Source: a virus
IMG/VR virus record: IMGVR_UViG_3300032265_002277
Location: 1 to 28,605 of that record
Strand: one strand, 5' to 3'
DNA: 28,605 nt
Positions 1 to 28,605 of this stretch are shown here, in pieces. Under the pieces are notes generated by a model. That model saw only the letters and a program-made list of their open reading frames with translations. It ran no database searches and had not been told where the DNA came from. Each line of letters starts with the position of its first letter. Positions within the stretch are counted from its first letter, which is position 1. Made by a program: the position numbers and the translations under genes.

Positions 1-1
1 C

Positions 2-172
2 TTCGGCCCCGCCCTTTCAGCGTGGACTGCTTCTACGGGATACTTCATTGCTACTTCGTCAGACAACACCGGCAAGTTGTTGTATGTGAGCAACTTTGCT
101 GATGGCACCACGCCGACCCTTGCTGTCAACGACACGCTGACGGTCACGCCAACCATCCTGTTGAGCAACTAG
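2..172 (+). CDS. C-terminal end of a phage structural protein (partial)
   Basis: This reading frame is open from the window edge to a TAG stop at 170-172, giving 56 residues that read FGPALSAWTAS at the start and end PTILLSN. The start lies outside the window. The sequence is rich in Thr, Ser, Ala and aromatic residues and looks like beta-strands separated by short turns (a YFIATSSDNTG stretch, then LYVSNFADG and LAVNDTLTV). Small proteins ending in this style are common just after the major capsid gene of tailed phages, and the genes that follow are neck genes, so a capsid-associated or decoration-like role is plausible. I do not recognise a specific family. Codon use matches the downstream genes. 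Confidence 0.6.
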   Translation, partial: FGPALSAWTASTGYFIATSSDNTGKLLYVSNFADGTTPTLAVNDTLTVTPTILLSN

Positions 173-187
173 TCGGGCTACCCCGAC
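172..187 (+). other. Intercistronic hairpin between stop and start codons
   Basis: GTCGGG (172-177), a CTAC loop (178-181) and CCCGAC (182-187) form a perfect 6-bp stem. It begins on the last base of the upstream TAG and ends one base before the ATG at 189. No T-run follows, so it is not a standard terminator. It occupies the place where a Shine-Dalgarno would be, and none is visible. A ribosome finishing the upstream gene would open it, so it may couple translation of the two genes; this is inference. Confidence 0.4.
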
Positions 188-188
188 A

Positions 189-3131
189 ATGAGTTCGCTG
201 GTTTCAGCAGTAGGTAGTTCCTTTAGCGGAACACTCGCCGCCACATCTGCCTTTACCTACACGAGTTCGACTACCCTTTTAAGTGCTACGCCCGTTGCTG
301 GTGATTATGTCTTTGTGGCAGTCTGGCTAACCCGTGCAACCGCAACAACAGCCGTTCAGAACGCTAACGGCACTTATGGCTCGGTGAAATGTGGAACCGT
401 CTTTTTGACTTGTATGGAAAACACCTCGGTTCCGACAAGCCTTTCAGGAACGACTACCACTAACTTCCACGCCTACAACGCTGCGACCACCATTGCCAAC
501 AACACCCCCAACCTTGCCATTTTCGGCGCACCCTACACATCGGGTATGAGCCGACAAATAGTAGTCACTGGCTACAACTCATCAGCAAACACCGCCATTT
601 TGCTCGTCACGGCTATGGCTGTTCAGGGTATCTATACCCCTGCGAGCAACCCTAGAACAACGTGGTGTAATACTATTTCGGCGGGTGGCGTGATAGATGC
701 GACCTCTGGTTCTGGTTTGGGCTGGACGAGCAACGGAACAACCCCCTCGCTAACAAACTTTGGAAGCACTAAGGTCAATAACAGCAACCTTACCTCTGCC
801 ATTGTGGATGATGTTTCTGGCGGTGCGTTTACGGGCGTTCTCAACCTCGGCTCTGGTGGCTACCAAAGCACCCAACTTTCCACTAGATACGCCAACCAGC
901 AGGGTCTTTACAACGGCGAACTAAGCCAATGGGGGATATTGGGGCTAAGCGGAACAGTCACACTTGGCACCACAAGTAGCAACAACCCTATTCCACCCGA
1001 CCTTTCTGGTGGCCCCTCGACCTACACGGGTGGAAAGTGGCTGGCGGTAGGTCAAGCGGTTTCGGGTCAGAATATTCCCAGAGACACATTCATCACAGGC
1101 TTTTCCTACTCATCCAACTTTTTCGGCGTTGGCCCTGCGTGGTTTATCAACCTAAACAACATTGCTACCACAACTGGCACCATTTTTGCTGGCACAGAAC
1201 AACCCGTTTTGTCAGTAATGCTCACCAACAACTTAACCACGGCTGCCGCAAGCACATCGGTTGGCAATGTCACGGGAACGCCAAACAACGGTTTGACCTC
1301 TATTGACCCACAAGGCGCGACAAACTATGTCACCACCGCAGGGCAGTCCTCTGGCGTGGTTGCCACTACCACCAATACCGCCCTGCCGACTTCAGGGAAA
1401 ATGACAGTTCCTACCTATGGTGGAAACGCCACAATGTCGTGGACATCCAAGCCAAGCAGTACAACCCTCGGAGGTTGCACGGTTCCAGCAACTCCCAGCG
1501 ACCAACTTCTTTACCAAGTTTGGTTAGACAATGTAATCACCCCTACCGTGTATTGGGATAACACGCCCGTTCTCTCTAGTGGCTCGACCCAAAGTGTTGC
1601 CCCCGCCATAGAAACACCATCAACGATTACCGCTATCGGCACTACGGGCTTCCAAATGGGAACTTTGGTGATGACTTATGGGGCAAACCGTTCAGGTATT
1701 AACCCTGTTGGCCTCTACGGGCTACTTCGCTCTAATGGTGGAACCAACTTTGGATACGGCGTTGCCTATGCCTTTCAGCCCAACAAAGCGGCGATTATTG
1801 GAACGGTGTCCGAGCAAATCGAGCGTGATGTCAGCGAAAGTTCAGGGGCGAGCCGCGTGTCGGCTCAAACGGCAGAAGTGGTGGAAAGTAGCAGTCCAAA
1901 TGACGGTGGTGCGCCTCGCACCCTTCCACGAACTAACGAAATCAGCCAACAAACCCCTACCGAGAACGCATCGGCCACTTCCAAAGCCAAGTCATCCTCA
2001 ACTAGTGAAATCCCCACCAACCAGAACGGTGCAGCAAGTCACGGCATAAATGAAGTCAGTTCGGTTGCGGAACTTGCTAACCAGCAGAACATCCGAGCCA
2101 GTGTAATGCCCAAAACCAGCGAGGTGAACTCCGCATATTTGGTTAATGATGGCGGTTCACCACTCACACACAACGAAGTGTCGGAAGTCCAAGACGGGTT
2201 TGCCGTGCAGGGCGTTCGTGCTGCAACAGTTTCCAAATCGGGTGCAGTTGCGCAGTTTTTCACTAGTCAAGGTGTGTCGGGCAAAGTCCGTTCTGTTTTG
2301 TCGCAGGTGGCGAGCAGCATTGTGACCCTCGTAAGTAAGGCGTTCACCACCAACAAATCTGGTGCGGTAGCGGGGACACCCTTCTCGGAGAACATCAAGT
2401 CAACGGCGCTTTCACGCACCTCAAAGGTCAATGAAACGCCCACATCGCAAAACCAGAAAGCGAGGGTTGCCTCAAAGACAGGGGCTGTTGCTGAAAAGCC
2501 AACAACGGCGGGAACTCGTGCAACAACTCGTTCTGCGGCTTCGGCGGTTGCTAAAGCCCTTTCCGTCAACGGCATAAAGAGCATTATAAAAACGCTGGTC
2601 AGCGAGGTTGTTGCCACATCAAGTGGTGAAAACTCCAAGTCGGCCAGCCACAACACGGCTTCATCTGTTGCGGAAAAAGCAACGACTGCTGCAGTCACTT
2701 CCAAAACCCTGTCTCGTTCCAGTAGTGTGTTTGAGGCTTTGCTAACTACGGGGTTGCAGTCGGCCTTTCGCACTAAGACATCGGCAGTTGCTGAAAAACC
2801 AAATAGCGAAAATACAAAGGCGGTCACTACCTCTCGTGCAAGCGAAGTCGTTCAGAACCCCTCGTCAACCTCGCAGCGTGTGGTTTCCAAAACTGTTGTA
2901 AGCGAAGTGACCTCTTACATCACCACCACCGTCAGTCGTATAGTCACTTACATTGAGGTTGGGGCGGTTGCCGAGCGCATTTTCACCACAGCCTTTGCCA
3001 TCCTTAACAAACTCGCAGTCGGCCTGAAGGAAACCTTTACCGAATACTCCAAGACCGAAGGATTTGCTGAAAAAACCACCACCCTATCTTTCCGAGATGA
3101 TGGGGTAGCCTCTTACACAGAAAGACAATAA
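189..3131 (+). CDS. Large capsid-proximal structural protein with 20-residue repeats
   Basis: A 980-residue protein of unknown function between an unidentified structural gene and the head-tail adaptor genes. Residues 1 to about 537 are beta-rich, Gly/Ser/Thr/Asn-rich and include a module (about 284-333, WLAVGQAVSG then IPRDTFITG) that also occurs in the tail proteins of this phage. Residues about 538-980 are degenerate tandem repeats, mostly exactly 20 residues, around the pattern [T/S]SxVAEKPxTxNxKAxxxSR. There is no signal peptide, no membrane segment and no enzyme motif that I can see. ATG 189 is the first start after an in-frame TGA at 162-164; it has no Shine-Dalgarno and follows a hairpin. 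The location suggests a head fibre or capsid surface protein, since tail fibres normally lie after the tape measure gene. That role is inference; the reading frame itself is certain. Confidence 0.85.
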   Translation: MSSLVSAVGSSFSGTLAATSAFTYTSSTTLLSATPVAGDYVFVAVWLTRATATTAVQNANGTYGSVKCGTVFLTCMENTSVPTSLSGTTTTNFHAYNAATTIANNTPNLAIFGAPYTSGMSRQIVVTGYNSSANTAILLVTAMAVQGIYTPASNPRTTWCNTISAGGVIDATSGSGLGWTSNGTTPSLTNFGSTKVNNSNLTSAIVDDVSGGAFTGVLNLGSGGYQSTQLSTRYANQQGLYNGELSQWGILGLSGTVTLGTTSSNNPIPPDLSGGPSTYTGGKWLAVGQAVSGQNIPRDTFITGFSYSSNFFGVGPAWFINLNNIATTTGTIFAGTEQPVLSVMLTNNLTTAAASTSVGNVTGTPNNGLTSIDPQGATNYVTTAGQSSGVVATTTNTALPTSGKMTVPTYGGNATMSWTSKPSSTTLGGCTVPATPSDQLLYQVWLDNVITPTVYWDNTPVLSSGSTQSVAPAIETPSTITAIGTTGFQMGTLVMTYGANRSGINPVGLYGLLRSNGGTNFGYGVAYAFQPNKAAIIGTVSEQIERDVSESSGASRVSAQTAEVVESSSPNDGGAPRTLPRTNEISQQTPTENASATSKAKSSSTSEIPTNQNGAASHGINEVSSVAELANQQNIRASVMPKTSEVNSAYLVNDGGSPLTHNEVSEVQDGFAVQGVRAATVSKSGAVAQFFTSQGVSGKVRSVLSQVASSIVTLVSKAFTTNKSGAVAGTPFSENIKSTALSRTSKVNETPTSQNQKARVASKTGAVAEKPTTAGTRATTRSAASAVAKALSVNGIKSIIKTLVSEVVATSSGENSKSASHNTASSVAEKATTAAVTSKTLSRSSSVFEALLTTGLQSAFRTKTSAVAEKPNSENTKAVTTSRASEVVQNPSSTSQRVVSKTVVSEVTSYITTTVSRIVTYIEVGAVAERIFTTAFAILNKLAVGLKETFTEYSKTEGFAEKTTTLSFRDDGVASYTERQ
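1800..3128 (+). repeat. Array of about 20 degenerate 60-bp (20-residue) coding repeats
   Basis: Eleven consecutive units near the end are exactly 20 residues each, for example SGAVAGTPFSENIKSTALSR, TSKVNETPTSQNQKARVASK, TGAVAEKPTTAGTRATTRSA and TSAVAEKPNSENTKAVTTSR. Earlier units keep the same phase with lengths of 18-23. The strongest positions are Ser/Gly at 2, Val at 4, Ala or Val at 5, Glu at 6, and a basic residue near 20. DNA identity between units is low, so the array is old and diverged and is held at protein level. A regular 20-residue period suggests a fibrous or solenoid fold. Confidence 0.8.
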
Positions 3132-3133
3132 AA

Positions 3134-3472
3134 ATGACCACAGTTGCCACTTATCCCACACCAGCATCAAGTTTGCCCGACCTTCAGTTTGTGTGGACTG
3201 ATGCCAACCAGCAACTCATTGACTTCAGCGTGGCGGGTTGGTCGTTCAGTATGAAAATCGGTCAACCGCCGAACGCCGCCATAATCACCAAGACCGCAGG
3301 CATTATCGGCTCTGCCACCTCGCCCAACATCACGGTGCAATGGAGTGTTGGTGAACTTTCCATCCTCACGCCGGGGCGTTGGTATTTCCAACTCACCGCC
3401 ACCTACGGGCCGAGTGGTGGAAAGCAACGCATTATGACCGGCGCTATTCGCATTGACCAAACCTCGATGTAG
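3134..3472 (+). CDS. Small Ig-like (BppU-N-like) phage structural protein
   Basis: A 112-residue protein starting 2 bases after the previous stop (TAA, then AAATG). The sequence has the pattern of a single beta-sandwich: DLQFVWTDANQQLIDFS, a strand with WSFSMKIG, KTAGIIGSATSPNITVQW, and a closing segment around GRWYFQLTATYG and TGAIRIDQ. This matches the general layout of small phage proteins related to the N-terminal domain of the lactococcal baseplate protein BppU (Ig-like). In this position, between the capsid and the adaptor, it is probably a virion surface or neck component. The family match is by pattern recognition only and the exact role is unknown. Confidence 0.6.
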   Translation: MTTVATYPTPASSLPDLQFVWTDANQQLIDFSVAGWSFSMKIGQPPNAAIITKTAGIIGSATSPNITVQWSVGELSILTPGRWYFQLTATYGPSGGKQRIMTGAIRIDQTSM

Positions 3473-3480
3473 GTGAAATA

Positions 3481-3993
3481 ATGACTTGGACTTACTCTGC
3501 CGACCCCACATCATCCACTAAGGATGCCGTTCGCTTCCTTATTGGTGATACCGATGACACCAACCCGATTATCCAAGACGAGGAAATCTACTTTAACCTC
3601 GGTGAAGTAGGGCAGAACATCTATCGAGCCGCTTCCAATACTTGCTACAACTTGGCTGCTCGTTTCACTGGAGAAGCCCAAAGCACGAGCAAGTCGGTTG
3701 GTGGCTTGTCCATCAGCAAGTCGTTGGGTGACAGGGCGCAACGCTACGAACGCCTTGCCAAAGACCTCTTGATGCGTTCTCGCCGTGTTTCACCGCCCAT
3801 TCCAAATGCCGACCCCGAAGCATTGGGTGCAGAGTTCTATATGGGCGAGTTTGACCGCTACTACGCACAGCCGAACTATTGGCCTAGTGAAAGCGTTCTC
3901 GGCGTGACCACGACCTACGGAACGGGCTACGAACCCGGCGAGGGTGGTGAAGTCGGGGGCGGTCAAGAGCCTTATGACGGAAATGCGGTCTAA
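3481..3993 (+). CDS. Head-tail adaptor (connector) protein
   Basis: A 170-residue protein with the typical opening of head-tail connector proteins of the HK97 gp6/SPP1 gp15 type: a short N-terminus, then DAVRFLIGDTDDTNPIIQDEEI, where the RxLIGDtd...l.DeeI pattern marks the first helices. Helical segments continue with AASNTCYNLAARF, SISKSLGDRAQRYERLAKDL and a Pro-rich linker. Such proteins form the ring below the portal and link the filled head to the tail. The C-terminus is a Gly/Glu-rich tail. The stop overlaps the next start as TAATG at 3991-3995, showing translational coupling with the neck genes that follow. Role is inferred from family pattern and gene order. Confidence 0.75.
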   Translation: MTWTYSADPTSSTKDAVRFLIGDTDDTNPIIQDEEIYFNLGEVGQNIYRAASNTCYNLAARFTGEAQSTSKSVGGLSISKSLGDRAQRYERLAKDLLMRSRRVSPPIPNADPEALGAEFYMGEFDRYYAQPNYWPSESVLGVTTTYGTGYEPGEGGEVGGGQEPYDGNAV

Positions 3994-4415
3994 TGCCTAT
4001 TGACCCCGACCTCTACGAACTGTTTGGGCAGACCCTCATTTGCGAAAACCCCCTGCCTATCAGCACCTACACGCCCGTTGGCGGTACCGGCACACCCGCA
4101 CCTGTTTTGGATGCGTATGGTCGGCACATCCTTGCTGATGGCACAACGCCCGCGACTTCGGCGGCAGCGTGGGGGTCACCCGTGACCTACCGCGCTCGTG
4201 TCGAATATTCCACCAAAGTCATAATGGATGCACAGGGGCGTGAGCGAGTGACCTCTGGGCGAGCCTATTTGATGGGCGTTTTCCCCGAAATCACCACCGA
4301 AAGTCGTGTCACGGTAGAGGAAGTCCAGCCCGCTCTGCAACACCCTGTCCTTGTTAGTGTCACCACCGACAACGACCAGTTCGGCCCGCAAAATACGACC
4401 CTGCACTTTGAGTAG
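3993..4415 (+). CDS. Probable head closure (stopper) protein
   Basis: A 140-residue protein coupled to the adaptor gene by a TAATG overlap. The middle and end are beta-rich: VTYRARVEYSTKVIMDAQGRERVTSG, then GVFPEITTESRVTVEE and HPVLVSVTTDNDQFGPQNTTLHF. A short barrel-like protein directly after the adaptor and before an HK97 gp10-like gene is, in siphovirus gene order, normally the stopper (SPP1 gp16-like) that closes the head until tail joining. The assignment rests mainly on position and on the 'rxrve...v.da.Grevts.grvyl' style seen in such proteins. It could be another neck protein. Confidence 0.6.
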   Translation: MPIDPDLYELFGQTLICENPLPISTYTPVGGTGTPAPVLDAYGRHILADGTTPATSAAAWGSPVTYRARVEYSTKVIMDAQGRERVTSGRAYLMGVFPEITTESRVTVEEVQPALQHPVLVSVTTDNDQFGPQNTTLHFE

Positions 4416-4423
4416 GTAGTGAA

Positions 4424-4810
4424 ATGGATATCGTCATCAAAGTGGATGCCACCAACTTGCAACTGCAACAGAAGTCACGGGAAATCAACGCAATGCTGAA
4501 GCGCACCGTTGACGATGTGACCGAGAAGGTCTTTGCTCAAAGCCAAATCCTCGTGCCTGTGAACACGGGCGCACTAAAGGCAAGCGGTCAGATAGTGAAA
4601 GAGCCGACTACGGGCGATGGGGAGTTTGTTGGTTCGTATGTGACCTACGGCAATGGCACGGTTAACTATGCGGTAAAGGTTCACGAGGACTTGCAGATGT
4701 ACCACACCGCCCCGACCCAAGCGAAGTTCCTTGAAGCCCCCTTGTTGCAGAACATCAAAGTGCTGGAAAATCTAATCCGTGAACGCCTGAAAGTGATACT
4801 CCACTCGTGA
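4424..4810 (+). CDS. HK97 gp10-like tail completion protein
   Basis: A 128-residue protein with the marks of the HK97 gp10 family: an N-terminal helix with many charged residues (INAMLKRTVDDVTEKVFAQSQ), then the diagnostic ILVPVNTGALKASG segment, a YAVKVHED segment in place of the family's Yap.vEfGt, and a closing FLEAPLLQNIKVLENLIRERL helix. These proteins act at the head-tail joining step, near the tail terminator. The leader 4416-4423 has no clear Shine-Dalgarno but carries one copy of the recurring TAGTGAAA word overlapping the start region. The TGA stop overlaps the GTG start of the next gene (GTGA, 4807-4810). Confidence 0.8.
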   Translation: MDIVIKVDATNLQLQQKSREINAMLKRTVDDVTEKVFAQSQILVPVNTGALKASGQIVKEPTTGDGEFVGSYVTYGNGTVNYAVKVHEDLQMYHTAPTQAKFLEAPLLQNIKVLENLIRERLKVILHS

Positions 4811-5238
4811 CCGACCTTCTTGATGCTCTAGGGGCTTACCTGCCCACCAAGACCGCCACCCTGCCTGCCGTTCAGCAGTTGCAACTCGGAGTAAATCTGT
4901 TCCTCGCTCGACTGCCCGCCGAAGCCCCCGATGCCTGCGTGGTTATTCAGCAGTATGAGGGGCAAAACCCGACCTTCACGATGGGGCCTGTCGTGAGCGA
5001 GTTGGAACATCCCCGTATCCAAATCAGCGTGAGGGGCAACCGTGAGGACTACCCCGGTGCGTATGACCTCGCCCTAGCCATCCGCAAAATCTTGGGGGCT
5101 ATCACCTCGACTACTTCATTGAGTGGCATCAGCGTGTTGCGTATTGAGCCTCTAGGACTTCCAAATCCCCTTGATTACGACCAAGTTGAGCGACCTCGCT
5201 TCACCACCAACTTCCAAGTCCACTACAAGTCCTCGTGA
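4807..5238 (+). CDS. Tail terminator / minor capsid-like protein
   Basis: A 143-residue protein starting at GTG 4807, coupled to the gp10-like gene by a 4-base overlap. It reads DLLDALGAYLPTKTAT near the start, then LGVNLFLARLPAEAPDACVVIQQYEGQNP, HPRIQISVRGNREDYPGAYDLALAIRKIL, and RPRFTTNFQVHY at the end. This is the layout of the tail terminator family related to Minor_capsid_3 (PF12691): a helix, an xxPdxcvvi.ey.G strand, a P.iqi.vR strand, a helix of length-measuring character, and a closing beta strand. The protein would cap the tail tube and bind the head completion ring. The GTGA overlap with the next gene continues the tight operon. Confidence 0.75.
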   Translation: MTDLLDALGAYLPTKTATLPAVQQLQLGVNLFLARLPAEAPDACVVIQQYEGQNPTFTMGPVVSELEHPRIQISVRGNREDYPGAYDLALAIRKILGAITSTTSLSGISVLRIEPLGLPNPLDYDQVERPRFTTNFQVHYKSS

Positions 5239-5947: not shown

Positions 5948-6172
5948 ATGGCTAAGGCTAAAACACAGTCGTACCAAGTCACTGACAAGTCACCTTTGTC
6001 TTACAACGGCAAGGAAGCGGCGTGTGGTGATGTGGTTAACGACCTGCCGGGCGAGAGCATCAGTTGGCTTTTGGCTGATGGCTTTATCGTTCCTGTCGTT
6101 TCAGCAGATGAGCCTGTCACGCCCGAAGCCGAAAATACGCCTGTTGATGCCCCCGTTGAGAGCGAAGCGTAA
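5948..6172 (+). CDS. Small acidic protein preceding the tail-tube gene
   Basis: A 74-residue protein with start ATG 5948 and a GGGAAGG Shine-Dalgarno about 7 bases upstream. It reads YQVTDKSPLSYNGKEAACGDVV, then LPGESISWLLADGFIVPV, then an acidic, Pro-rich, probably disordered tail. The first part resembles small phage proteins that bind or cover structural components ('y.g..y..Gdvv.dl...swLl..G.i'), which are often found in the neck-tail region of actinobacterial phages. Function unknown. Its TAA overlaps the ATG of the tail-tube gene (TAATG, 6170-6174), so its translation is coupled to that gene. Confidence 0.65.
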   Translation: MAKAKTQSYQVTDKSPLSYNGKEAACGDVVNDLPGESISWLLADGFIVPVVSADEPVTPEAENTPVDAPVESEA

Positions 6173-7152
6173 TGCCCACTTTCCTGCACGGCAAGAACAC
6201 ACGAGTGATGTTCGTCAACCCCGGCTTCACCTCGCAGACCTTCACGGCTTCTGCCACGAACCTCAGCCCGACCATTTCTGTCGTGTCGGCCAACTTTTCA
6301 CTAGTCCCCGGTATGGGCGTGACCGCCGCTTCTGGCCTTGCTGCTGGAACGGTCATCCTTTCCGTCACGGGCAACACCCTGACCCTCTCAAACAACTTTG
6401 CGGGAACTACGGGAAATATCGTTTTCACCGCATCTAGCACCGGCATTTCCTACGACATCTCGCAGTTTTTTAACGATGTCAGCGTTTCGTTTGCTGGTGA
6501 GGCTACTGAAACTACGACCTTCCAAACCTCTGGCGTGAAGTCTTTTATCGCTGGTCTGCGTGAAGGCAGTGTCGCCCTTTCCGGCTTTTACGATGGCACG
6601 GTCAACGGTGTGGATGCCATCCTGAACACCGCCATCTCCAACACGAGCGATGAAGGCGTAATCGTTTTCCCTGACGGTGCTGGTTCAGCAACTGTCACTT
6701 CTCGCTGCTACTTGGCAAGGGGTATCGAAACCAAGTTAGACCTCAAATCACCCGTTTCTGGCGTGGTGGCGATAGATACTGAAATCCAAGCCGATGGTGG
6801 CGTGTGGCGTGGCTTCGGGCAGACTTTCACCCAAGCGGTTGCTGCTACGACCTACGCACCAAGTTCCACCGGCAATGTCCGAACAGAGGGTGGCACGACC
6901 AACGGTGGTGTCATTTTGATGGGTGTCACATCCCTGACCGGCACTTCGCCCACGGTGGCTTTGACATTTCAGCACTCACCAGACGGTTCAACTTGGACAA
7001 CGCCTACGGGCGGTGACCTTGCTACCGAAAGTGGCGTGGGCGGGGTTGTCACACTCGTCAACGGCAATATTTACAAGTACACCCGACTTCGGGTGGTCTT
7101 GGGTGGCACAAGTCCTTCAGCAAACATCTACTACGGGTTCGCCCGTTTCTAA
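6172..7152 (+). CDS. Major tail (tube) protein, long paralogue
   Basis: A 326-residue protein. The core, shared with the next gene, has an N-terminal HGKN motif, a central block at about 94-143 (DISQFFNDVSV, then ETTTFQTSGVKSFIAGL and a GxxD segment), and a block at about 185-212 (ETKLDLKSPVSGVVAIDTEI). The ExxETTTF...GVKxxIxGL pattern is typical of phage tail tubes. An extra module sits at about 43-90 (LVPGMGV then GTVILSVTGNTLTLS), and a C-terminal domain of about 110 residues follows (TFQHSPDGSTWT, then YKYTRLRVVL), probably an Ig-like surface domain like the one on lambda gpV. Position before the chaperone and tape measure genes fits. Which of the two paralogues forms the main tube cannot be decided from sequence. 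Confidence 0.75.
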   Translation: MPTFLHGKNTRVMFVNPGFTSQTFTASATNLSPTISVVSANFSLVPGMGVTAASGLAAGTVILSVTGNTLTLSNNFAGTTGNIVFTASSTGISYDISQFFNDVSVSFAGEATETTTFQTSGVKSFIAGLREGSVALSGFYDGTVNGVDAILNTAISNTSDEGVIVFPDGAGSATVTSRCYLARGIETKLDLKSPVSGVVAIDTEIQADGGVWRGFGQTFTQAVAATTYAPSSTGNVRTEGGTTNGGVILMGVTSLTGTSPTVALTFQHSPDGSTWTTPTGGDLATESGVGGVVTLVNGNIYKYTRLRVVLGGTSPSANIYYGFARF

Positions 7153-7161
7153 GGAGTAATA

Positions 7162-7866
7162 ATGGCAACTTTCCAGCACGGTAAGAACGGGTTTCTGGCT
7201 CTTGGCTACGAAACCGCAGCACCCATCCCGACCCTGACAGCAGGTATCACCGGCAGCACCGCAATGGGTGCTATCACGGGTTTCACTGGCTCGCTTCTTG
7301 CAAGCAACGCCAGCAACCAGTTGGTCGCAACGAGTGCAACCGCAACCTACGGTCTGTTCCTCGGTGGTGTTCCGAACTATGTGACCACTTCCGTGACCAT
7401 TTCGGGTGGCACTTTGGCCGTATCAGCAACCGCTGCAACCGGCGCACAGGTGCTTACGATGGTCAACATTTCACCATACATCAACGACATTTCGTTCCCG
7501 CAGGCTATTGAAACCAACGAAACCACGACCTTTTCGGCTGCTGGTGTCAAGACCTACATCGTGGGTCTGAAGGGTTGGACTGTCACCTTTGGCGGTATGC
7601 TCGACCTAACTGGTGGAACCCCCGGTGCCATTGACAAGATTATGTCGGACATCATCAACTTCCAAAACCTTTCCAGCGCCAACCTCTTGTCGTTCGTTTA
7701 CGGCCCTGCCTCGCCGGGTGCGCTTGGTGGTGGTACGGCTGACCTGAAGTACTACGGTCAAGCCATTCTCACGAAGTATGACCTCAAATCATCTGTCTCT
7801 GGCGTTGTCACCTTTGATGGTGAACTTCAGGTCACTGGCGCAGTTAACCGCACCATTCTCCTTTAG
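7162..7866 (+). CDS. Major tail (tube) protein, short paralogue
   Basis: A 234-residue protein nine bases after the long paralogue, with AAGGAG overlapping the previous stop. It shares MATFQHGKN at the start, the central block at about 103-150 (YINDISFPQAIETNETTTF, then GVKTYIVGLKGW), and the C-terminal block KYDLKSSVSGVVTFDGELQ, where the protein ends soon after. It therefore lacks the C-terminal domain of its neighbour. It carries a different beta-rich insertion at about 25-95. The two are clearly homologous along the whole core, so this is a tandem duplication that diverged in its extra domains. It may be the main tube subunit, with the longer paralogue as a decorated minor one, or the reverse. 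Confidence 0.75.
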   Translation: MATFQHGKNGFLALGYETAAPIPTLTAGITGSTAMGAITGFTGSLLASNASNQLVATSATATYGLFLGGVPNYVTTSVTISGGTLAVSATAATGAQVLTMVNISPYINDISFPQAIETNETTTFSAAGVKTYIVGLKGWTVTFGGMLDLTGGTPGAIDKIMSDIINFQNLSSANLLSFVYGPASPGALGGGTADLKYYGQAILTKYDLKSSVSGVVTFDGELQVTGAVNRTILL

Positions 7867-7904: not shown

Positions 7905-8291
7905 GTGTCAAACCTTTCAGCAAAGATTTTCGCAGCAGCAGACATTGAGAGTGAACTCGTAGAGGTCGCTCAATGGGATGTCACGTTGCTAGTGAAATCC
8001 ATCACGGCCAAAGACCGCGCAGTAATGATTTCGGGTTCAGTAGAGAACAACGGTGATTTCCGCTTAGAGGAAATCCTGCCCGACCTCGTTATTGCTTCGT
8101 GCTACGACCCAGAAACGGGCGAGAAGGTTTTTCAGCCCCAAGACCGTGATGCACTAATGGCAAAGTCAGCCGCACCCATTGAGCAGTTGGCGCAAGTCGC
8201 TATGCGCCTGTCAGGTATGGATGCAGAGGCGGTTGATGCGGCGGGAAAAGGCTCTACGCCAACCCAGAGCGACGCTTCCTCTTTGAGTTAG
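7905..8291 (+). CDS. Tail assembly chaperone, short form (gpG-like)
   Basis: A 128-residue protein starting at GTG 7905, with AAGGAG at 7894-7899. It lies between the tail tube and the tape measure genes, where siphoviruses keep their chaperone pair. The sequence reads FAAADIESELVEVAQWDVTLLVKSITAKDRAVM, then EEILPDLVIASCYDPETGEKVF and a helical region with QDRDALMAKSAAPIEQLAQVAMRLSGM, all usual for the actinobacterial gpG-like family. It would bind the tape measure protein during tail assembly and not enter the virion. Most ribosomes should end at TAG 8289-8291; a fraction should shift frame at 8243-8249. Confidence 0.8.
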   Translation: MSNLSAKIFAAADIESELVEVAQWDVTLLVKSITAKDRAVMISGSVENNGDFRLEEILPDLVIASCYDPETGEKVFQPQDRDALMAKSAAPIEQLAQVAMRLSGMDAEAVDAAGKGSTPTQSDASSLS

Positions 8292-8443: not shown

Positions 8444-8464
8444 CAAGATGGAAGGGGGGCTGTG

Positions 8465-11881: not shown

Positions 11882-11918
11882 ATCCCGATTTTGTGGGGTA
11901 GAGTAGGGGTTGAGCGAG

Positions 11919-21000: not shown

Positions 21001-22200
21001 GCCGTATCGGGTGTGATGTTTAAGGCTCTGAACGCACCTTCACTCGGCTCAAACTCAACCTCATCTACTGAAATCCCTGCTCTCTCGGCCGCGATTACGG
21101 TGGGCGCAACGCAGGTGAACAATGCCTTCCCCATCCCCTCAACCACGCCCATCGCTGGCGTGAACACCTTGTATGTCTTTGACCCCGTGGGTGACTACAA
21201 CACTCGTGAACTTCACGCTGGTGGAACGCTGAAAACTTTGTGGACTAGCACCACAGGTGCGGTGGCACTTGGGGCTACGCAGGTGACCCTGAACTCGGTG
21301 GATGGACTTGCCCCCGGTGTGCCACTCATCTTTGACTACGGCGCACCAACCCAAGAGACTGTCGTGGTTGACAGTTCGTGGTCGGGTGGGGCAGTCGTTC
21401 CTATCGCCGCCCCATATTTCACCAAGTCTCACGCAGCCACGACCCGTGTGTATTCGTATGTCGCTGGCTTGGCGAGCGAAGTGACCGTCACCCAAGCGGT
21501 GAACACCCCCGTTGCGGTCTTTAACTACGGCCCCGATGGATACATCGCTTCTAATACCAAGACCTACCAATACAAGGTGGAAAAGTCAGAGGATGGCGGT
21601 CAGACTTGGACAACCCTTCGTCACGGCAACACGCTGAAAGCCGATGACACAGGCGTTGCCTACATCACCGACTACGAAGCCGTTCCGGGACTTGCGACCT
21701 ATTACCGAGCCACCGCTACGCACTATGTTCCACCACTTCCGGCTTCCTCGGACTACACGGTGACAGGTGCGCCGAGCGCACAACTGAAGGCAAATGTCAT
21801 CAGCAACAGCAACTGGTGGCTGGCAAGCACGAGTGATGACAGTCTCCGCTACCCAATGCTGGTGAAAACGGGCTACTCGGAAACCCAGAAGCACCCCTCT
21901 GGCGTGTTCTACCCACTCGGCTCGTCACGACCCATCACCATCGCTGGTGTGCCTACGGGTCGAGATGGCAGTTTGACCGTGACTTGGACAGACCTTGCCA
22001 ACTTCAGCAACTTCCTGTCGCTACTGAACAAGGGCGAAACCCTTGTCCTTGTCAACCCCGTTGAGAGTGACCGCAAATACATCTTTATCAACCAAGATGT
22101 CAGCATCACGCACAATGCGGCAAACTCCCCGTATCGTGAAATCACCATCAACTATGTTGAAGCGGCACCGCCCAACTTTGGCTACACCTACGGAAGTTAG
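15076..22200 (+). CDS. Giant modular minor tail protein with probable distal-tail domain at its C-terminus
   Basis: A 2,374-residue protein, the largest in the window, overlapping the previous gene by 8 bases (ATGGCTAA). Residues about 190-780 hold several tandem copies of a beta-module (for example SLAVGQQVF...CFITAISGSTVTISS). Residues about 800-1,130 contain fibronectin-III-like segments (FWLYSDIDGEPQAGWEVRIYDD, then NGERYWAYIRV). A widespread phage module lies at about 1,194-1,250 (FPTSGTFWVAIDSENILV ... RGYKNP ... THAVGATV), and a related one at about 2,057-2,130 (GATQVTLNSVDGLAPG). A jelly-roll-like region near 1,757-1,900 could bind carbohydrate. The last 110 residues (RPITIAGVPTGRDGSLTVTW, then LVNPVESDRKYIFINQDVSI) resemble the C-terminal part of distal-tail proteins. 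It probably forms the tail tip or a receptor-binding structure; the receptor is unknown. Confidence 0.75.
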   Translation: MANTTYTAAPSLVATNTTQQLSITTDTKLSVTAPWLASGNSGTPDISTTLATTALAGSSSLTLLSGDNFPTSYPSIYQQGIYFLPPSVGRLAGSVTSGTNVIPFVPREDMPTALPIFVRLGSEILQVTSFGNTTVGSTGYVTLNTATNTGSSHPDFTPIHLNSLPTDIQYSQIEVPNFYLADGSASGTMSGQSNTISTGSIPSTMGVGQTITTTTGGTTYLPVGTTVTAYGNGSGLVTLSSTFSTPASGLTFSNSATFAATINPPLITGFASISSTGGGTHTVFSSFPNVGSAITGTGIPATTYISGLDAGNIRMAISNNPTAYTSAVALTSTLTFTVSSTRGSTVLTLKTITVNGTSYPKVGTTNPTWNGRTLAYYLKVGAPISGASPAISAVTYITGVNVSNGTVIIASAATATVTTSTVTSTITCTANTGRAVVFTPNASSEINKLLVVNSTIANTGATNYVTTSTTISKIVTLSATQSEIWMSAASGTTGAWTTTLSLGSTFSGTSSFSNQITGVTNASTLYQVGSLVYGNQYIPDNTTISGISGTTITLSNTLTNGFSTITGATFKVGSSLNVGKTYTTLPVTPLPCLIPSGTTLYLTYGNFVQNLVTSATAYAGDATMTVNSFQPRFNFSTTSYSYGVARTSTGDYGYGANLTVGLNSDLFSGQALILQTSGSNTTTLIADGYTRQTARVIKVKSFVSAYAYDGQSVGFSTTGTFTGGSSQITSVGATASLAVGQQVFSTALPTMAKCFITAISGSTVTISSNAIASGTVITFSVYSNSFTASVPMTLDTGSVQEVIFPISLPTLVGNYWSVNLSAPTMYQHNNGSPLVYYHYPTPLHTGDVTYRPDFGKFLMWDGFQWRTARVNALRGVYSILGAVGGGDVSSITLYDPNTNKETAADTYKGTPSTDYSTYFGGYRSVDPNGDEWMGNSILNIKFHLTAKVPQGKSIGYRSLALQSEYKSAPLVANINFSPGDNFEISPNVTNSVFWLYSDIDGEPQAGWEVRIYDDYTYHRSDFDPDNSAIIPFWKASGSDDTTEVEITGADGWVNGERYWAYIRVAKQFHQKQWWGDWNYQRFLVTVDQPVPPIMSVFTDNTNSYNKLAIQSTDNLLGENNGSFGSGLGQWSITSNDTASSGINDLIEGIPLGSTLSTSGLITSLPVGATGYVKTQGALSGTGTGTFTVSNTASGGGDAIGFPTSGTFWVAIDSENILVTNKLDGNNTSDTFTIVQRGYKNPNTGTNTTAATHAVGATVSFGLQNPIYVGSVASVKFSQHKVTDFTTTTTANVRNYNGRAAYTEPKQRTALQIVAQTQGADKDTTDHVIVNDPQRLLSSADVGSSVVLSLRSWHYADKNNVITVDANGNRTVVAQAKPDHQLTGKDVREITMTIKSVRDIWDDTQNKQGKVTIATVSAQVAGSVASGALYAIHQLSVTPLVAKDKIFVYDSSNSCIANNFLPTGTQLKISASSIHDPVANKDLPAASMMVTLTKDWHPTDTTIHIRSILKAPGFRVGNGSCFIIPKGASITWSPPLMFTGRKRVTFTSRYGQKRSFFGQKLTPGDGFYVLKGRYFPAIANTATGYHNQTQTTSGQTITDTDSQQDFVVDFLTQPTVATGGVLGTLTSSSFTIATSATYSYNAIAFASTPGSVSGAYVSTPGLSPNSIAAANPTTVVGGTYAGYFAVTFTDLSGATAYVTTQNSNVTSNVVSNPVYTGITATFVPTNNLKISAGSQSIPVRPLTPNFAYPANVPISIVYPTIYTGHALAVQPTTGTGSDNKISEISLYPTGWNFTDQNPVAVNAGQTYGFAAYSKIASGSGTPTFSPRVDWYDEVGSLLKSSYGTESLTNPGTINSVTISVQMNTSTNLWGQGWNPIAMVATAPTISLGSATFVSGASSTGTFTLGSNLTFTIKAGATIYDSTNSYTVTSDALLGQATITVRFTSGISVPSSTLLSIKATRAVPALRWTNVKAADVYAVSGVMFKALNAPSLGSNSTSSTEIPALSAAITVGATQVNNAFPIPSTTPIAGVNTLYVFDPVGDYNTRELHAGGTLKTLWTSTTGAVALGATQVTLNSVDGLAPGVPLIFDYGAPTQETVVVDSSWSGGAVVPIAAPYFTKSHAATTRVYSYVAGLASEVTVTQAVNTPVAVFNYGPDGYIASNTKTYQYKVEKSEDGGQTWTTLRHGNTLKADDTGVAYITDYEAVPGLATYYRATATHYVPPLPASSDYTVTGAPSAQLKANVISNSNWWLASTSDDSLRYPMLVKTGYSETQKHPSGVFYPLGSSRPITIAGVPTGRDGSLTVTWTDLANFSNFLSLLNKGETLVLVNPVESDRKYIFINQDVSITHNAANSPYREITINYVEAAPPNFGYTYGS

Positions 22201-22202
22201 TC

Positions 22203-23855
22203 GTGTATCCCACTAGTGAAAAGTTTACGCAGTCGGTCAAAGCCTCGCACCGCCCGTTCGTAGTTGTCAAGGCAATGTCCATTGACGGAACTTTCGTCAA
22301 CTTGCCGGTTGTAAGTGGTGATGTCAAGGTTGACCGCACTAGTCAGGATGTTCGCCGCACCCTAAGTTTGACGGTGAACAGCCTCGACCTCGTGCCGGTT
22401 TTGGCTACCGACCCCCTGAACATCTACGGCAACCACATCTATGTGTATCGGGGCGTTCTCTGGCGTTCTGGTAAAATCCCGCAGCAACTGTGGGATGCAC
22501 CGCCACCCCTGAACAAGTATCTGATGCGGTTTGATAACACCACCTCAAACGACCCTGCGTGGGCGCAAGCACTCCAAAGCAACCCACCCTACGAACTCGT
22601 TCCACTTGGCGTATTTCGTATCAACTCGGTGGATGTCAGCGAGGACACGGATGGAAGCGTGACCATTTCGGTTTCCGGAGCCGACATTTCACAAAACATC
22701 TCCAAAAATGCGTGGACAGGGCCGGTCACGATTTGGAAAACGGCCTACAAAGTTCCCGTTCCGAAGGTGGACACCACCCCCGAAGTCACCTATGTGGCAA
22801 CGGGCGTTCACGAAGCCATCAAGTTGTTGGTGAACGACAGGTGGGGCAACGGGCGCAAGTCGGTCTTTGGTGAACCTCGTTTTGAGTTTGGCGGCGTGGC
22901 GAACAAACCCCTCACCAAGCCCGTGATTATGGGGTCAAACACGATTTCCACCACCGGAAGCAACTCCCCGTGGACAGACATCACGGCTCTTGCTTCATCC
23001 ATCGGTGCTGAAATGTATGTGGATGGCGAAGGTGCGTTCCGTCTGCAACCCATCCCCGACCCGAACACCATTTCGCCCGTGTGGGATTATTTTGATGGTG
23101 AAGGCGGTTTGTTGACCAACGCCAAGCGCACCCTGAACGAAAGCAAAGCAGTCAACTATGTCATTGCAAGTGGTGAAAACACAGGCACAAAGACTGCCCT
23201 GAAAGCCATTGCCTACGATGGTGACCCTGCCAGCCCGACTTACTACTTGGGCGAGTTTGGTCGAGTGGTGGGGCGTGAGCCGGGGCGTAAAAAACTTACG
23301 ACACAGGCTGAAGTCCAAAACGCAGCCGACACCTACCTGAACTGGTTCGTGGGTGGCGAGGAAAGCGTGAGCATCGAAGGCGTGGTGAACCCTGCCCTCG
23401 ACACAGGTGATGTCATCCGTGTTCGCCGTAAGCAGTTGGGCATCTACAACGAAGCCACCGTCATCTCCGAACTTGCAGCCGACTTCCCTACGAATAGTGA
23501 AAAGACGGTCATTACCCAAATCCGTGTCGTGGCCCTGAAAAAGGGTCTGGCAGCAGGAAGCCAACTCGTCATTTACACCAACTCGGACTACGACACCGTG
23601 ACCTTGACCCAAGCGGCAAACAAGGGAACGACCACCATAGATGTCCAGCCTTTTCACCCAAAGCGCCAATACCGCAAGGGAACGATTATTTTTGACCCCG
23701 CCGACTTGTCTAATGTTGGTTCTGTTCCTCACTACATTGACCAACTAACCATTCCACTAGACATTGACAAGCCCATCCAAATCACGGCTCGTTCGCGCCG
23801 AGTGGGAAGCCGCCAAGATGCCATCCGTGTGGCCGAATACAGTCAGGGCTACTAA
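22203..23855 (+). CDS. DUF5047-type minor tail / tail-tip hub protein
   Basis: A 550-residue protein starting at GTG 22203, two bases after the preceding stop. The first 360 residues match the DUF5047 pattern of actinobacterial phage minor tail proteins: FTQSVKASHRPFVVVKAMS, GDVKVDRTSQDVRRTLSLTV, PLGVFRINSVDVSEDTDGSV, ISGADISQNI-like text (ISVSGADISQNISKNAW), and WTDITALASSIGAEMYVDG. These correspond to the hub fold, related to tail-associated proteins that cap the tube. Residues about 460-520 add a segment TTIDVQPFHPKRQYRKGTII that resembles segments in the two preceding tail proteins. The final part returns to TARSRRVGSRQDAIRVAEYS. The stop overlaps the next start (TAATG, 23853-23857). Confidence 0.8.
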   Translation: MYPTSEKFTQSVKASHRPFVVVKAMSIDGTFVNLPVVSGDVKVDRTSQDVRRTLSLTVNSLDLVPVLATDPLNIYGNHIYVYRGVLWRSGKIPQQLWDAPPPLNKYLMRFDNTTSNDPAWAQALQSNPPYELVPLGVFRINSVDVSEDTDGSVTISVSGADISQNISKNAWTGPVTIWKTAYKVPVPKVDTTPEVTYVATGVHEAIKLLVNDRWGNGRKSVFGEPRFEFGGVANKPLTKPVIMGSNTISTTGSNSPWTDITALASSIGAEMYVDGEGAFRLQPIPDPNTISPVWDYFDGEGGLLTNAKRTLNESKAVNYVIASGENTGTKTALKAIAYDGDPASPTYYLGEFGRVVGREPGRKKLTTQAEVQNAADTYLNWFVGGEESVSIEGVVNPALDTGDVIRVRRKQLGIYNEATVISELAADFPTNSEKTVITQIRVVALKKGLAAGSQLVIYTNSDYDTVTLTQAANKGTTTIDVQPFHPKRQYRKGTIIFDPADLSNVGSVPHYIDQLTIPLDIDKPIQITARSRRVGSRQDAIRVAEYSQGY

Positions 23856-25396: not shown

Positions 25397-25999
25397 CTAG
25401 TCAGCGACCTTCACGCTGACCGAGATGCCACCTTCGGTGTGCTGAAGTCCAGCCACAGGCGTTCCGGTGGTGGGGTCAATGACCGAAGTGCCATCGAAGT
25501 CGGCAACCTTCTTGATAGCCGAGACATCAGCCTCACGCTTCACACGCACCCACTCGGAGTGACCGTTGGCTTCAGCCCAAGCGAGAAACGCTTCAGCATC
25601 CGTCACGGCAACCTTGCTCGGCGTGATACGGCTGGTCAGCGTTCCATCGGGGAAGTCAATGGACTTGCGACCATCTTGCTCGTTCTGACGAACGGTGATG
25701 AGGTAGTCCGAGAGAGCGAGGTCAAAAAACTCAACCTCACGCCCGTGCTTCGTGGTGTTCGCTTCTACCCAAGCGTTGATACGGTCAAGTTCGACCTGTG
25801 CCATACGCTTCACCTCGTCAATGCGGCGTTGTGCCTGTGCGAGCCTACGCATCGCCCACAGAGCCTCATCATCGCTGGTGATGGTCAAGGCTCGCTCGGT
25901 GGTGAGGTTGCCCTGTTCGTCAATGTTGTTCTCGGCAAAGCCCGAAGGCTCACCAAGACTTGCTAGGTATGTGGACAAGTCCACGATTTCGTTGCTCAT
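25397..25999 (-). CDS. Gam-like host-nuclease inhibitor
   Basis: A 200-residue protein on the minus strand. The central helical region (about 44-110) reads DEALWAMRRLAQAQRRIDEVKRMAQVELDRINAWVEANT, then EVEFFDLALSDYLITVRQ, DGRKSIDFPDGTLTSRITPSKV and DAEAFLAWAEANG. The long antiparallel-helix pattern followed by 'rKsi.lPdGtl..R..p..v.v.D...fl.wa' is that of the phage Mu Gam family (host-nuclease inhibitor). Such proteins bind free double-strand ends and block exonucleases such as RecBCD. It is coupled to the upstream small gene by TAATG. Placement next to a Sak4-like gene supports a recombination role. It runs against the main direction of transcription. Confidence 0.8.
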   Translation of the reverse strand: MSNEIVDLSTYLASLGEPSGFAENNIDEQGNLTTERALTITSDDEALWAMRRLAQAQRRIDEVKRMAQVELDRINAWVEANTTKHGREVEFFDLALSDYLITVRQNEQDGRKSIDFPDGTLTSRITPSKVAVTDAEAFLAWAEANGHSEWVRVKREADVSAIKKVADFDGTSVIDPTTGTPVAGLQHTEGGISVSVKVAD

Positions 26000-26241: not shown

Positions 26242-26279
26242 AGGACTTCCTTCCTTAGTCGGTTGATACTACGACAGGA

Positions 26280-26308: not shown

Positions 26309-26366
26309 ATCATTGTGAGGCTTTTTTCGGGGTGTCAAATCATCAAGGGAAATAAGGGTTCTGGGC

Positions 26367-26395: not shown

Positions 26396-26466
26396 GATGA
26401 GTGGACACTAACGAAACCAGTTCCAATAGCAATACCGAAACCATAAACAGAAAGGGGTGACCAACC

Positions 26467-27390
26467 GTGTCATCTTTATTTACCAAAGCGAGCAAAGCAG
26501 AAGCGAAGGCTCGTATCGCAGTCACCGGCCCATCGGGTTCAGGTAAGACCTATTCATCGCTCTTGTGGGCAAGGGTGCTTGCCGAGGGTGGCAAAATCGC
26601 AGTCATTGACACCGAGCGTGACAGCGCAAAGTTGTATGCAGACCGCTTTGACTTTGACAGCCTTTCGATGTCTGCCCCGTATCACCCTGACCGCCTTGTT
26701 GAGGCTCTGAAGGTCGCACAGGATGAAGGCTACGCTTGCGTGGTTATTGACAGCCTGACCCACTTTTGGAACGGACAGGGTGGCATCTTGGAAATCGTTG
26801 ACCAAGCAGGTGCCGCCAATAAGGGCAACGCCTTCTCTGGTTGGAAGGTTGCCACGCCCATCCAGCAACGGATGGTTGATGCCATCCTCGCTTTTGATGG
26901 TCACATCATCACCACGATGCGTTCTAAGACCGAGTACTCGCTCGAAAAGAACGAATACGGAAAGATTTCCCCCAAGAAGGTTGGCCTTGCACCTCAACAG
27001 CGTGACGGTATTGAATACGAATACACCCTCGTCTTGGAAATGGACACCGACCACCGCACCATCATCGGCAAGACCCGTTGCGAGATTTTGGCTGACAAGG
27101 CGTTCCCTGCGAACGCCGCCACCGATGGTGCAAACACCTTCTTGAACTGGCTGAAGTCGGGTGACCCCCTCATCACAGACACCGAGCGTGATGCTCTTGA
27201 TGGTCGTATCCGTTCGCTGACCCCCGAACGCCGCCGAGCGTTGGGCGAACTGTGGGCTGACAAGGGCTTCCCGAAGGTTGCTTTGCTGACCGCCAACCGC
27301 TACGCCGAAGCCGTTGCTCTCGTCACCGCCGTTGCAACTGACGGTGCTGATGAGGTTGAGGTTGAGGTTGACGAGGAAGCAAACTCGTAG
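26467..27390 (+). CDS. Sak4-like RecA-fold ATPase (recombination)
   Basis: A 307-residue protein starting at GTG 26467. It has a P-loop at residues 21-28 (GPSGSGKT), an early IDTERDSA segment (47-54), and a Walker B at about 90-97 (ACVVIDSL, Asp95). The order 'RiaVtGpsGsGKTyssLlwA', VIDTE, FxxLSMSAPYHPD, VIDSLTHFW, GHIITTMRSKTEY and GKISPKKVGLAPQQRDGIEYE is that of the phage AAA/RecA-core family that includes Sak4 single-strand annealing ATPases. These act with a single-strand binding protein in recombination or recombination-dependent replication. The C-terminal 60 residues are more variable and end in an acidic tail. It is divergent from a Gam-like gene and upstream of replication genes. 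Confidence 0.8.
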   Translation: MSSLFTKASKAEAKARIAVTGPSGSGKTYSSLLWARVLAEGGKIAVIDTERDSAKLYADRFDFDSLSMSAPYHPDRLVEALKVAQDEGYACVVIDSLTHFWNGQGGILEIVDQAGAANKGNAFSGWKVATPIQQRMVDAILAFDGHIITTMRSKTEYSLEKNEYGKISPKKVGLAPQQRDGIEYEYTLVLEMDTDHRTIIGKTRCEILADKAFPANAATDGANTFLNWLKSGDPLITDTERDALDGRIRSLTPERRRALGELWADKGFPKVALLTANRYAEAVALVTAVATDGADEVEVEVDEEANS

Positions 27391-27434
27391 TTCACCGCAC
27401 AGGGGGCTAATCGCCCCGTGAGCCGATGTAAATC

Positions 27435-27469
27435 GCCCTGCCATCCCTTCGGGGGTGGTGGGGCTTTTT
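27435..27469 (+). terminator. Rho-independent terminator after the Sak4-like gene
   Basis: GCCC (27435-27438) and CCATCCC (27441-27447) pair across a TTCG loop with GGGGTGG (27452-27458) and GGGC (27461-27464), and TTTTT follows at 27465-27469. The tetraloop, GC-rich stem and T-run make this the clearest terminator in the window. A smaller stem at 27403-27417 (GGGGC/GCCCC) precedes it. The rest of 27470-27547 holds no clear promoter; the replication gene downstream may rely on read-through or an unrecognised promoter. Confidence 0.85.
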
Positions 27470-27547
27470 GCGCTCTGTAAGTCCACACACGGGTCGCTGT
27501 GGTCGTGTAGTGTCAGCACCCTCTAGAAGCCAACACGAGGAGTGACC

Positions 27548-28363
27548 TTGACCATCCGCAGAAGTCCATCGCCCATCCGCAAAAACTTCACCATCCTTCC
27601 GAACAAAACCCTGAACGACAGTCGCTTGACTTGGCAAGCACGAGGGATGCTCGCCTACCTGCTCTCAAAGCCTGACCATTGGCGTGTCATCGTCAAGGCG
27701 TTGGTGAACGAAAGTCCGGCAGGTCGAGATGCCGTTTACTCCATCCTGAAGGAGTTGGAGAAGTTTGGCTACATCACCTACGAGCAAACCCACGAAAGTG
27801 ATGGCACTTTTGGTGAAACCGAGCGTGTCGTTCACGAGGTTTCCTGCATTTCCCCTGATGGCACCGCTTACGGCTTAGCCGTATACGGCTCAACCGGATA
27901 CGGCTCAACCGTATACGGCGAACCCGTATGCATAGTAAATACTGATTTAGAGAAAGAACTGACTAGAGAAAGTACTGAACTAAGTAATCTGCCCGCTTCT
28001 AGCGAAACGGGCGACAAGTCAAAATCGGCCACTAGTGAAAATCAACCATACCAAGCCGAGTTTGATGAACTGTGGGCGCTCTACCCACGCAAGGTTGGGC
28101 GCAAGAAAGCCCAAGCCCAACTCATTGCCACGCTGCGGCGAGGTATTTCACTAGACGAACTCCGCGCCGCAGTCCAAAACTACGCTGCTTCTCGCCAAGG
28201 CAAAGAGGATGCTTACACCCTTCACGCTTCGACCTTCTGGGGGTCAAGCGATAGGTGGGAGGATTACAAGACAGGCGGTGAGGGGCTGAAAGCCGACAAG
28301 CAAGCCAGCCAGCCGAAGGGCTTCAGCGCCATCCAAAACTTCTTAAACCGAGGCAACCAATGA
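27548..28363 (+). CDS. Replication initiator protein with winged-helix N-terminus
   Basis: About 271 residues. TTG 27548 is preferred over GTG 27542 because GAGGAG at 27537-27542 would overlap the GTG. Residues about 12-90 are a helix-turn-helix domain of the phage replication type: FTILPNKTLNDSRLTWQARG, MLAYLLSKPDHWRV, SPAGRDAVYSILKELEKFGYI. A linker follows (about 108-160) that contains four YGxxV-type pentapeptides encoded by the iterons and then a Ser/Thr/Glu-rich acidic stretch. The C-terminal domain (about 168-250, FDELWALYPRKVGRKKAQAQL, then STFWGSSDRWEDYK) is common in phage replication proteins that recruit a helicase loader. It would bind the origin in its own gene, as lambda O does. 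The TGA overlaps the next start (ATGA, 28360-28363). Confidence 0.8.
   Translation: MTIRRSPSPIRKNFTILPNKTLNDSRLTWQARGMLAYLLSKPDHWRVIVKALVNESPAGRDAVYSILKELEKFGYITYEQTHESDGTFGETERVVHEVSCISPDGTAYGLAVYGSTGYGSTVYGEPVCIVNTDLEKELTRESTELSNLPASSETGDKSKSATSENQPYQAEFDELWALYPRKVGRKKAQAQLIATLRRGISLDELRAAVQNYAASRQGKEDAYTLHASTFWGSSDRWEDYKTGGEGLKADKQASQPKGFSAIQNFLNRGNQ
27869..27928 (+). repeat. Four 15-bp palindromic iterons
   Basis: Four head-to-tail 15-bp units without spacers: TACGGCTTAGCCGTA (27869-27883), TACGGCTCAACCGGA (27884-27898), TACGGCTCAACCGTA (27899-27913) and TACGGCGAACCCGTA (27914-27928). Unit 1 is a perfect interrupted palindrome (TACGGC-TTA-GCCGTA); the others keep the symmetry in part. 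They lie in the linker of the replication initiator gene and are in frame (Tyr-Gly-x-x-Val). This is the form of initiator-binding sites at a phage origin. Confidence 0.8.
27929..27991 (+). other. A+T-rich stretch next to the iterons; candidate origin unwinding element
   Basis: Directly after the fourth iteron, 27931-27990 has 18 G/C in 60 bases (30%), far below the surrounding 50-55%. It encodes an acidic, Lys/Glu/Leu/Ser-rich linker. A+T-rich DNA beside iterons is where lambda-type origins open. The function is inferred from the arrangement; no box for DnaA is recognised in it. Confidence 0.6.
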
Positions 28364-28605
28364 CCCGTGAACAAACAGCCATTATTTGCGCCACCCTTTC
28401 AGCGGCGTTCCCAAACTGGACTGTGACATCCGAGACTTTGGAAGTCTGGCAGGCGATGTTGCAGGATTTGGATGGTGAAATCGTTTTCCGAGCCGCACAG
28501 GACTGGGTTTTGTCCGAGGAAAAGTATCCGACCATCGCTGGCATCCGCAGGAAGTCTGCTGAAATCTCCAACTCGCTCTGCCCCACCGCCTCTGAAGCGT
28601 GGGTC
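28360..28605 (+). CDS. Probable helicase loader, G39P-like (partial, runs off the window)
   Basis: The first 82 residues of a gene that starts at ATG 28360, overlapping the replication initiator stop by 4 bases, and continues past the window edge. It reads MTREQTAIICATLSAAFPNWTV, then ETLEVWQAMLQDLDGEIVFRAAQDWV, then KYPTIAGIRRKSAEISN. The pattern 'e....l..l..afP.w...etl.vw...l.dld.e.v..A...w....ky.PtiaeIR' is that of small helical proteins related to the SPP1 G39P helicase loader/inhibitor family. It would deliver the replicative helicase to the initiator-bound origin, which agrees with its coupling to that gene. No helicase or polymerase gene is in the window. Confidence 0.65.
   Translation, partial: MTREQTAIICATLSAAFPNWTVTSETLEVWQAMLQDLDGEIVFRAAQDWVLSEEKYPTIAGIRRKSAEISNSLCPTASEAWV

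Follow-up and report, generated by a model that had tools for sequence, protein, structure and literature searches.

Avoidance of restriction sites is textbook knowledge in phages and usually concerns one or a few sites. Examples can be found in T7 (GATC, CCWGG) and phage K (GATC), where particular restriction sites are nearly or completely lost. In double-stranded DNA phages generally, Type II sites are under-represented or eliminated, most strongly in non-temperate phages, and in the 2018 survey by Rusinov et al. 7.1% of the tested orthodox Type II sites were eliminated (PMC6286503). A second group of relevant viruses, the whiB-carrying phages of freshwater actinobacteria, consists of tailed phages known from metagenomes (PMC6802176, PMC10202952). 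Restriction-site loss is not mentioned in PMC6802176 or PMC10914622, by keyword search, or in the part of PMC10202952 that was covered.

The viral DNA described here shares site loss with the surveyed phages and, through its relatives, WhiB with the freshwater group. Site avoidance is already known; the number of words, the exactness of their loss and their turnover are new. Unlike in the surveyed phages (PMC6286503), 5–30 motifs are lost together per 28-kb stretch. Type IIS sites and interrupted palindromes are among them, and phages of 71–95% nucleotide identity differ in their sets.

The analysed stretch, called the window below, is the complete IMG/VR record IMGVR_UViG_3300032265_002277, of 28,605 bp. 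Its genes show it to be a genome fragment of a tailed phage. The words that a genome lacks are called its ban list. The features of the window are as follows.

1..28605, no strand: whole window, with a ban list of about 30 motifs at or below 10% of expectation (counts against a codon-shuffled null)
189..3131, + strand: large repetitive protein, 980 aa (open frame), with a similar protein in the corresponding position of the 108-kb relative G001
3134..5238, + strand: five open frames for head-tail connector and tail-completion proteins (PHROGs 1084, 1732, 3881, 5, 2595)
6172..7866, + strand: two major tail protein genes (PHROGs 9522, 10528)
7905..8291, + strand: tail assembly chaperone (PHROGs 344)
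8462..11881, + strand: tail tape-measure protein, 1139 aa, 67% identical to its G001 counterpart (PHROGs 58 and others)
11910..22200, + strand: a pair of long proteins of the tail region, rich in Thr, Ser and Gly, of 1057 and 2374 aa (open frames); similar proteins stand in the same order in G001
22203..23855, + strand: tail protein with relatives among the minor tail proteins of phages of Streptomyces, Rhodococcus and Brevibacterium (PHROGs 1887; tblastn, 24–29% identity)
25397..25999, - strand: Mu Gam-like DNA end-protection protein (PHROGs 2205, E 1e-34)
26467..27390, + strand: Sak4-like RecA-fold ATPase, the marker for collecting relatives (PHROGs 1366, 124)
27542..28363, + strand: replication initiation protein (PHROGs 270)
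28360..28605, + strand: helicase loader, truncated by the window end (PHROGs 2289)

The window holds no tRNA, and a megablast search with its positions 1–25,000 gave no DNA match among 50,697 phage records.

Words eliminated from the window

The original prediction held that the palindromes GATC, AGCT, CATG and AATT are wholly absent from this DNA. An exact count over the 28,605 bp gives zero for each, far below the 47–100 expected from 100 synonymous codon shuffles, which preserve proteins and codon usage. The expected numbers are 99.8 for GATC (minimum among shuffles 82), 87.4 for AGCT (61), 46.5 for CATG (34) and 72.7 for AATT (53), and the Poisson log10 P values of the four absences range from -43 to -20. 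The words are missing from coding and non-coding DNA equally.

Codon habits bend to these absences in the way that had been predicted. Leucine after AAG, CAG or GAG is written TTG 22 times, TTA twice and CTN never (0/24); elsewhere in the window, CTN makes up 470 of 632 leucine codons. None of 126 ATG codons follows a codon ending in C, and asparagine before T is AAC 97 times and AAT never. Aspartate before C likewise is GAC 78 times and GAT never. The further claim that other four-base palindromes are frequent holds for TGCA and CTAG, which are near expectation. It fails for TCGA, GGCC, CCGG, TTAA and GCGC, which are present but depleted (observed/expected 0.39, 0.39, 0.51, 0.52 and 0.59 under the same null).

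A greedy scan yielded the full ban list. It covered every 4-mer and 5-mer, 6-mers that were palindromic or degenerate, and interrupted palindromes; words containing an accepted word were discounted. A motif at or below 10% of its expectation was called eliminated. Under the codon-shuffle null, 30 motifs are eliminated in the window, and 13 of these stand at zero. The number of independent specificities is better estimated at about 20–30, since certain motifs overlap others or may reflect their sequence context (e.g. CGACG, CGTAC and GWCGWC). The further zeros (observed/expected) include GANTC 0/60, CCWGG 0/55, GTWAC 0/68, CAATC 0/49, GDGCHC 0/47, CTYRAG 0/23, CYCGRG 0/22 and ACCGGT 0/17. Near-zeros include GAAGA 1/47, CTSAG 1/47, GRCGYC 1/41, GGWCC 2/40, GACGC 4/63 and ACGT 6/120.

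The purge has the resolution of an enzyme and is specific to single bases. GTWAC does not occur, whereas GTSAC occurs 129 times, or 1.5 times its expectation. Similarly, CCWGG is absent while CCSGG is found 25 times against 40 expected, and CTSAG occurs once while CTWAG is found 19 times against 24 expected.

Ban lists of related phages

Relatives were gathered via the Sak4-like ATPase, giving about 40 contigs, whose names presumably point to JGI freshwater and bog-lake metagenomes. They also show zeros, each with a different set of words. AGCT is banned in nearly all of them and GATC in most, and membership otherwise differs by contig: AATT, TTAA, ATAT, CATG, CCGG, CGCG, TCGA, GGCC, TGCA and ACGT are each banned in some. 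In relatives of 24–121 kb, AGCT, and in most of them GATC too, is at exact or near zero, with other words variable. An example is G001 (IMGVR_UViG_3300023184_004051), a contig of 108,670 bp, which of all the relatives has the longest stretch in common with the window (26.3 kb aligned at 71% identity). Its observed/expected counts are 0/344 for AGCT, 0/242 for CATG, 0/219 for TTAA, 0/200 for CCWGG, 1/271 for AATT and 2/368 for GATC.

Of the 16 four-base palindromes, contigs of the group ban 3.8 on average and contigs with closely related WhiB 4.2. The mean is only 0.3 for other viral contigs that carry the marker gene, and 0.08 for bacterial contigs. Stretches of about 28 kb from the group have 5–30 eliminated motifs each. 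In stretches of similar length, the same scan finds 5 motifs in T7, 3 in Staphylococcus phage K, 2 in Helicobacter phage KHP30, 1 in Mx8 and 0 in each of VWB, Che8 and Microcystis phage LMM01; the 3–5 motifs of phage K and T7 contrast with the 30 of the window. The well-known losses in T7 (GATC, CCWGG) and phage K (GATC) were recovered as positive controls, so the scan works.

Ban lists turn over rapidly. At least 35 changes of four-base ban state are needed on an ATPase tree of 37 rows. The window itself has 39 copies of TTAA, while its two closest relatives on that tree have none.

The purge of a single word can be followed between G007 and G008, which are 87% identical over 49.8 kb. CCGG occurs 108 times in G007 and 0 times in G008, with none in common, whereas for other palindromes that are not banned and exceed 50 copies, 57–69% of positions are common to both. 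Of 107 ungapped CCGG positions, 94 are altered by one base in G008. In coding DNA 76 of 104 changes are synonymous (73%), compared with 38–56% at altered sites of four control words. The replacements are CCAG (36), CCCG (15), CCTG (11), CAGG (8), CTGG (6) and others, with many transversions. Because the changes are mostly synonymous and the replacement bases varied, the loss of CCGG is due to selection, through whatever base the code allows, and not to deamination.

A third phage, G013, is 95% identical to G008 and has 35 CCGG. Eleven of these lie in a 1.5-kb stretch (46,584–48,102) that matches G008 weakly, and the remainder are scattered. Several G008 genes missing from G007 are glycine-rich and tail-adhesin-like, and a host switch may have accompanied the new ban in this one case. 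Since phages 87–95% identical differ by the complete loss of a word, the speed at which restriction is escaped can be measured.

Two further observations concern single words. ATAT is at exactly 0 in G005, G007, G008, G013 and G014 (33–99 expected); no restriction enzyme of this specificity is known to us. G011 (L141–L143) also lacks AAAAA and CCCCC (0 against 98 and 86 expected), a homopolymer avoidance not seen in other long contigs.

Hosts and lifestyle

WhiB is taken as diagnostic of actinobacterial phages (PMC6802176). The domain (PF02467) is found in G001 and G013, with aligned homologues in G004, G009 and G010; none was seen in the window, which is a genome fragment. Among phage records, the relatives of the window's tail protein at 22203..23855 come only from Streptomyces, Rhodococcus, Brevibacterium and Arthrobacter phages. 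Because of these tail protein relatives and the WhiB of related contigs, the hosts are probably Actinomycetota. When the ATPase alignment was searched against bacterial genomes, with each species represented once, all matches were distant and of prophage type (at best 51% identity), and no host emerged. A WhiB search of 396 Actinomycetota genomes found no close relative.

A search confined to tyrosine integrases (PF00589) found none in 19 contigs, which may be incomplete. This absence is compatible with a virulent lifestyle; elimination of sites is commonest in non-temperate phages (PMC6286503).

A candidate host junction in contig L014 was rejected. GATC, CATG, AGCT and CCWGG switch abruptly there from zero to many at about 11.7 kb, and on the site-bearing side lie a homing-endonuclease-like gene and a gene for an ArdA antirestriction protein (13798–14472). 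That end is acquired mobile DNA or a chimera and gives no evidence on the host.

Explanations for the eliminated words

The explanation that we favour, and consider likely to be right, is that a virulent lineage of tailed phages, most likely of Actinomycetota and with largely unmodified DNA, has been selected by Type II restriction endonucleases, including Type IIS enzymes, to lose their cut sites. Incoming unmodified DNA would be cut by the endonucleases of the cells it enters. One or a few cuts would be lethal to the entering genome, and sites that are often met would fall to exactly zero. The loss would take many generations and proceed chiefly by synonymous change. Each lineage would have its own ban list of some 10–30 words, set by its host range, and when the host range or the enzymes of the hosts shift, a word could be purged or readmitted. 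The methyltransferases of some relatives may protect other sites. The enzymes would then be encoded by the hosts, and the turnover driven by host change.

Loss to several restriction specificities, as originally predicted, stands as the best reading because known Type II and Type IIS sites are enriched among the eliminated words, the purge is specific to single bases, and the change between close relatives is mostly synonymous. The predicted number, at least four specificities, was a large underestimate.

The match to known specificities was judged by a hand-written list, not by REBASE itself. Each word was tested in each contig. For asymmetric 5-bp Type IIS sites (FauI, FokI, SfaNI, MboII, HgaI, BbvI, BsrI, BsmFI, BccI, BspCNI and HpyAV), 23 of 270 tests showed elimination, compared with 56 of 6447 for other 5-mers, and 32 of these 56 are CCWGG, GGWCC or GANTC, themselves known Type II sites. 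The odds ratio is 10.6 (P = 2e-14), in tests that are not fully independent, the contigs being related, and with the hand-written list. Among 576 interrupted palindromes, the sites of known enzymes (BglI, Tth111I, PshAI, XmnI, AlwNI) are more depleted (P 3e-6), with the same relatedness of contigs and the same list.

Two points weigh against restriction by the hosts. About 30 specificities acting on one lineage are a lot to ask of one host, and some eliminated words have no cognate enzyme known to us, namely CAATC, GTWAC, ATAT, CCTCC and CGTCC. The fit is also poor if the hosts are lineages like those in the Lake Biwa metaepigenomes, where seven actinobacterial draft genomes, themselves incomplete, had no methylated motif and no methyltransferase (PMC6329791). 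If such lineages are the hosts, the enzymes must sit in the flexible genome; otherwise the hosts are others.

A variant, to which we give a minority share of our belief, attributes the purge to the enzymes of many bacteria, met through promiscuous adsorption or a broad host range, and not to those of one host. Some 20–30 restriction specificities exceed the normal number in one bacterium, as this variant would lead one to expect. Against a single community-wide pressure, one metagenome (3300032241) yields differing sets (L019, L025, L028, L084), although each phage may still have several hosts.

It is improbable that the nucleases responsible belong to the phages. Sequence-specific endonucleases of the phage itself, or of co-infecting phages, would here destroy host or rival DNA, and a genome free of sites would be self-immune. 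AGCT is absent from nearly the whole group, as a shared phage gene would predict, G001 encodes a putative PDDEXK_14 endonuclease and several methyltransferases, and the unmethylated freshwater actinobacterial drafts (PMC6329791) agree with this explanation as well. Phage-encoded nucleases are nevertheless the less probable agents, since nuclease families that can be recognised are scarce in the long contigs with many bans. Among 19 contigs, 16 lack HNH, 17 lack PDDEXK_14 and 10 lack an N6/N4 methyltransferase match, and the presence of these families shows no pattern matching the bans. G008 and G007 differ by the CCGG ban, yet no nuclease can be recognised among the genes that G008 has and G007 lacks, and 20–30 such nucleases per phage are implausible.

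A mutational process, by host methylation and deamination or a biased polymerase, could strip words without selection, and would account for whole words vanishing from coding and non-coding DNA alike. We regard it as very improbable and rejected it on the substitution spectrum at CCGG. The largest replacement class there, CCAG, is a transition, but the transversions CCCG, CCTG, CAGG and CGGG (38) nearly match the transitions CCAG and CTGG (42), and the excess of synonymous changes over the control words is likewise against it. Furthermore, AATT and TTAA have no cytosine, exact zeros are reached, and in L014 the words are missing only from the first 11.7 kb or so.

It is hardly credible that palindromes are avoided in general, on account of structure or expression. 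Many 6-bp palindromes are depleted in all contigs, and phages generally under-use palindromic sites (PMC6286503), but the asymmetric Type IIS words GAAGA, GACGC, CCCGC and CATCC are eliminated as well, the window has CTAG and TGCA at about their expected numbers, and the sets are base-specific and differ among close relatives.

If selection by restriction endonucleases is accepted, ban lists could serve as a route from phage sequence alone to the restriction repertoires of hosts, and hence to the hosts, and they would predict restriction specificities that may still be undescribed. A broader reading, which is possible but which we put forward tentatively, is that they record, in legible form, the restriction specificities of uncultured actinobacteria. 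The pool of these would be unusually large and quick to change and would include undescribed ones (e.g. ATAT, CAATC/GATTG, GTWAC, GGAGG/CCTCC and GGACG/CGTCC), so that phage sequence alone could predict new enzymes as well as each phage's host range.

Some proteins of the relatives have unusual features of their own. The peptide KGDxPGHPF[RH]GNQ[YW] is common to at least nine otherwise different proteins, mostly near the N-terminus, in G001 (L088, L091) and also in G013 and G007. Examples in the G001 record are encoded at 27620–28216, 34098–35465, 90011–91840 and 96907–99334. The peptide resembles a tag by which internal or injected proteins might be sorted or packaged.

In L014, the homing-endonuclease-like gene (12034–12810) lies antisense within a DNA methyltransferase frame (10585–12978). 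In G001, a cytosine-C5 methyltransferase gene (36349–38493; L088:16349–18493) has an apparent insert of about 200 codons ahead of its last motif. An HNH match (PF01844, G001 38148–38288) lies within this insert in a different reading frame, an arrangement that suggests a homing endonuclease gene nested in the methyltransferase gene while leaving its frame intact.
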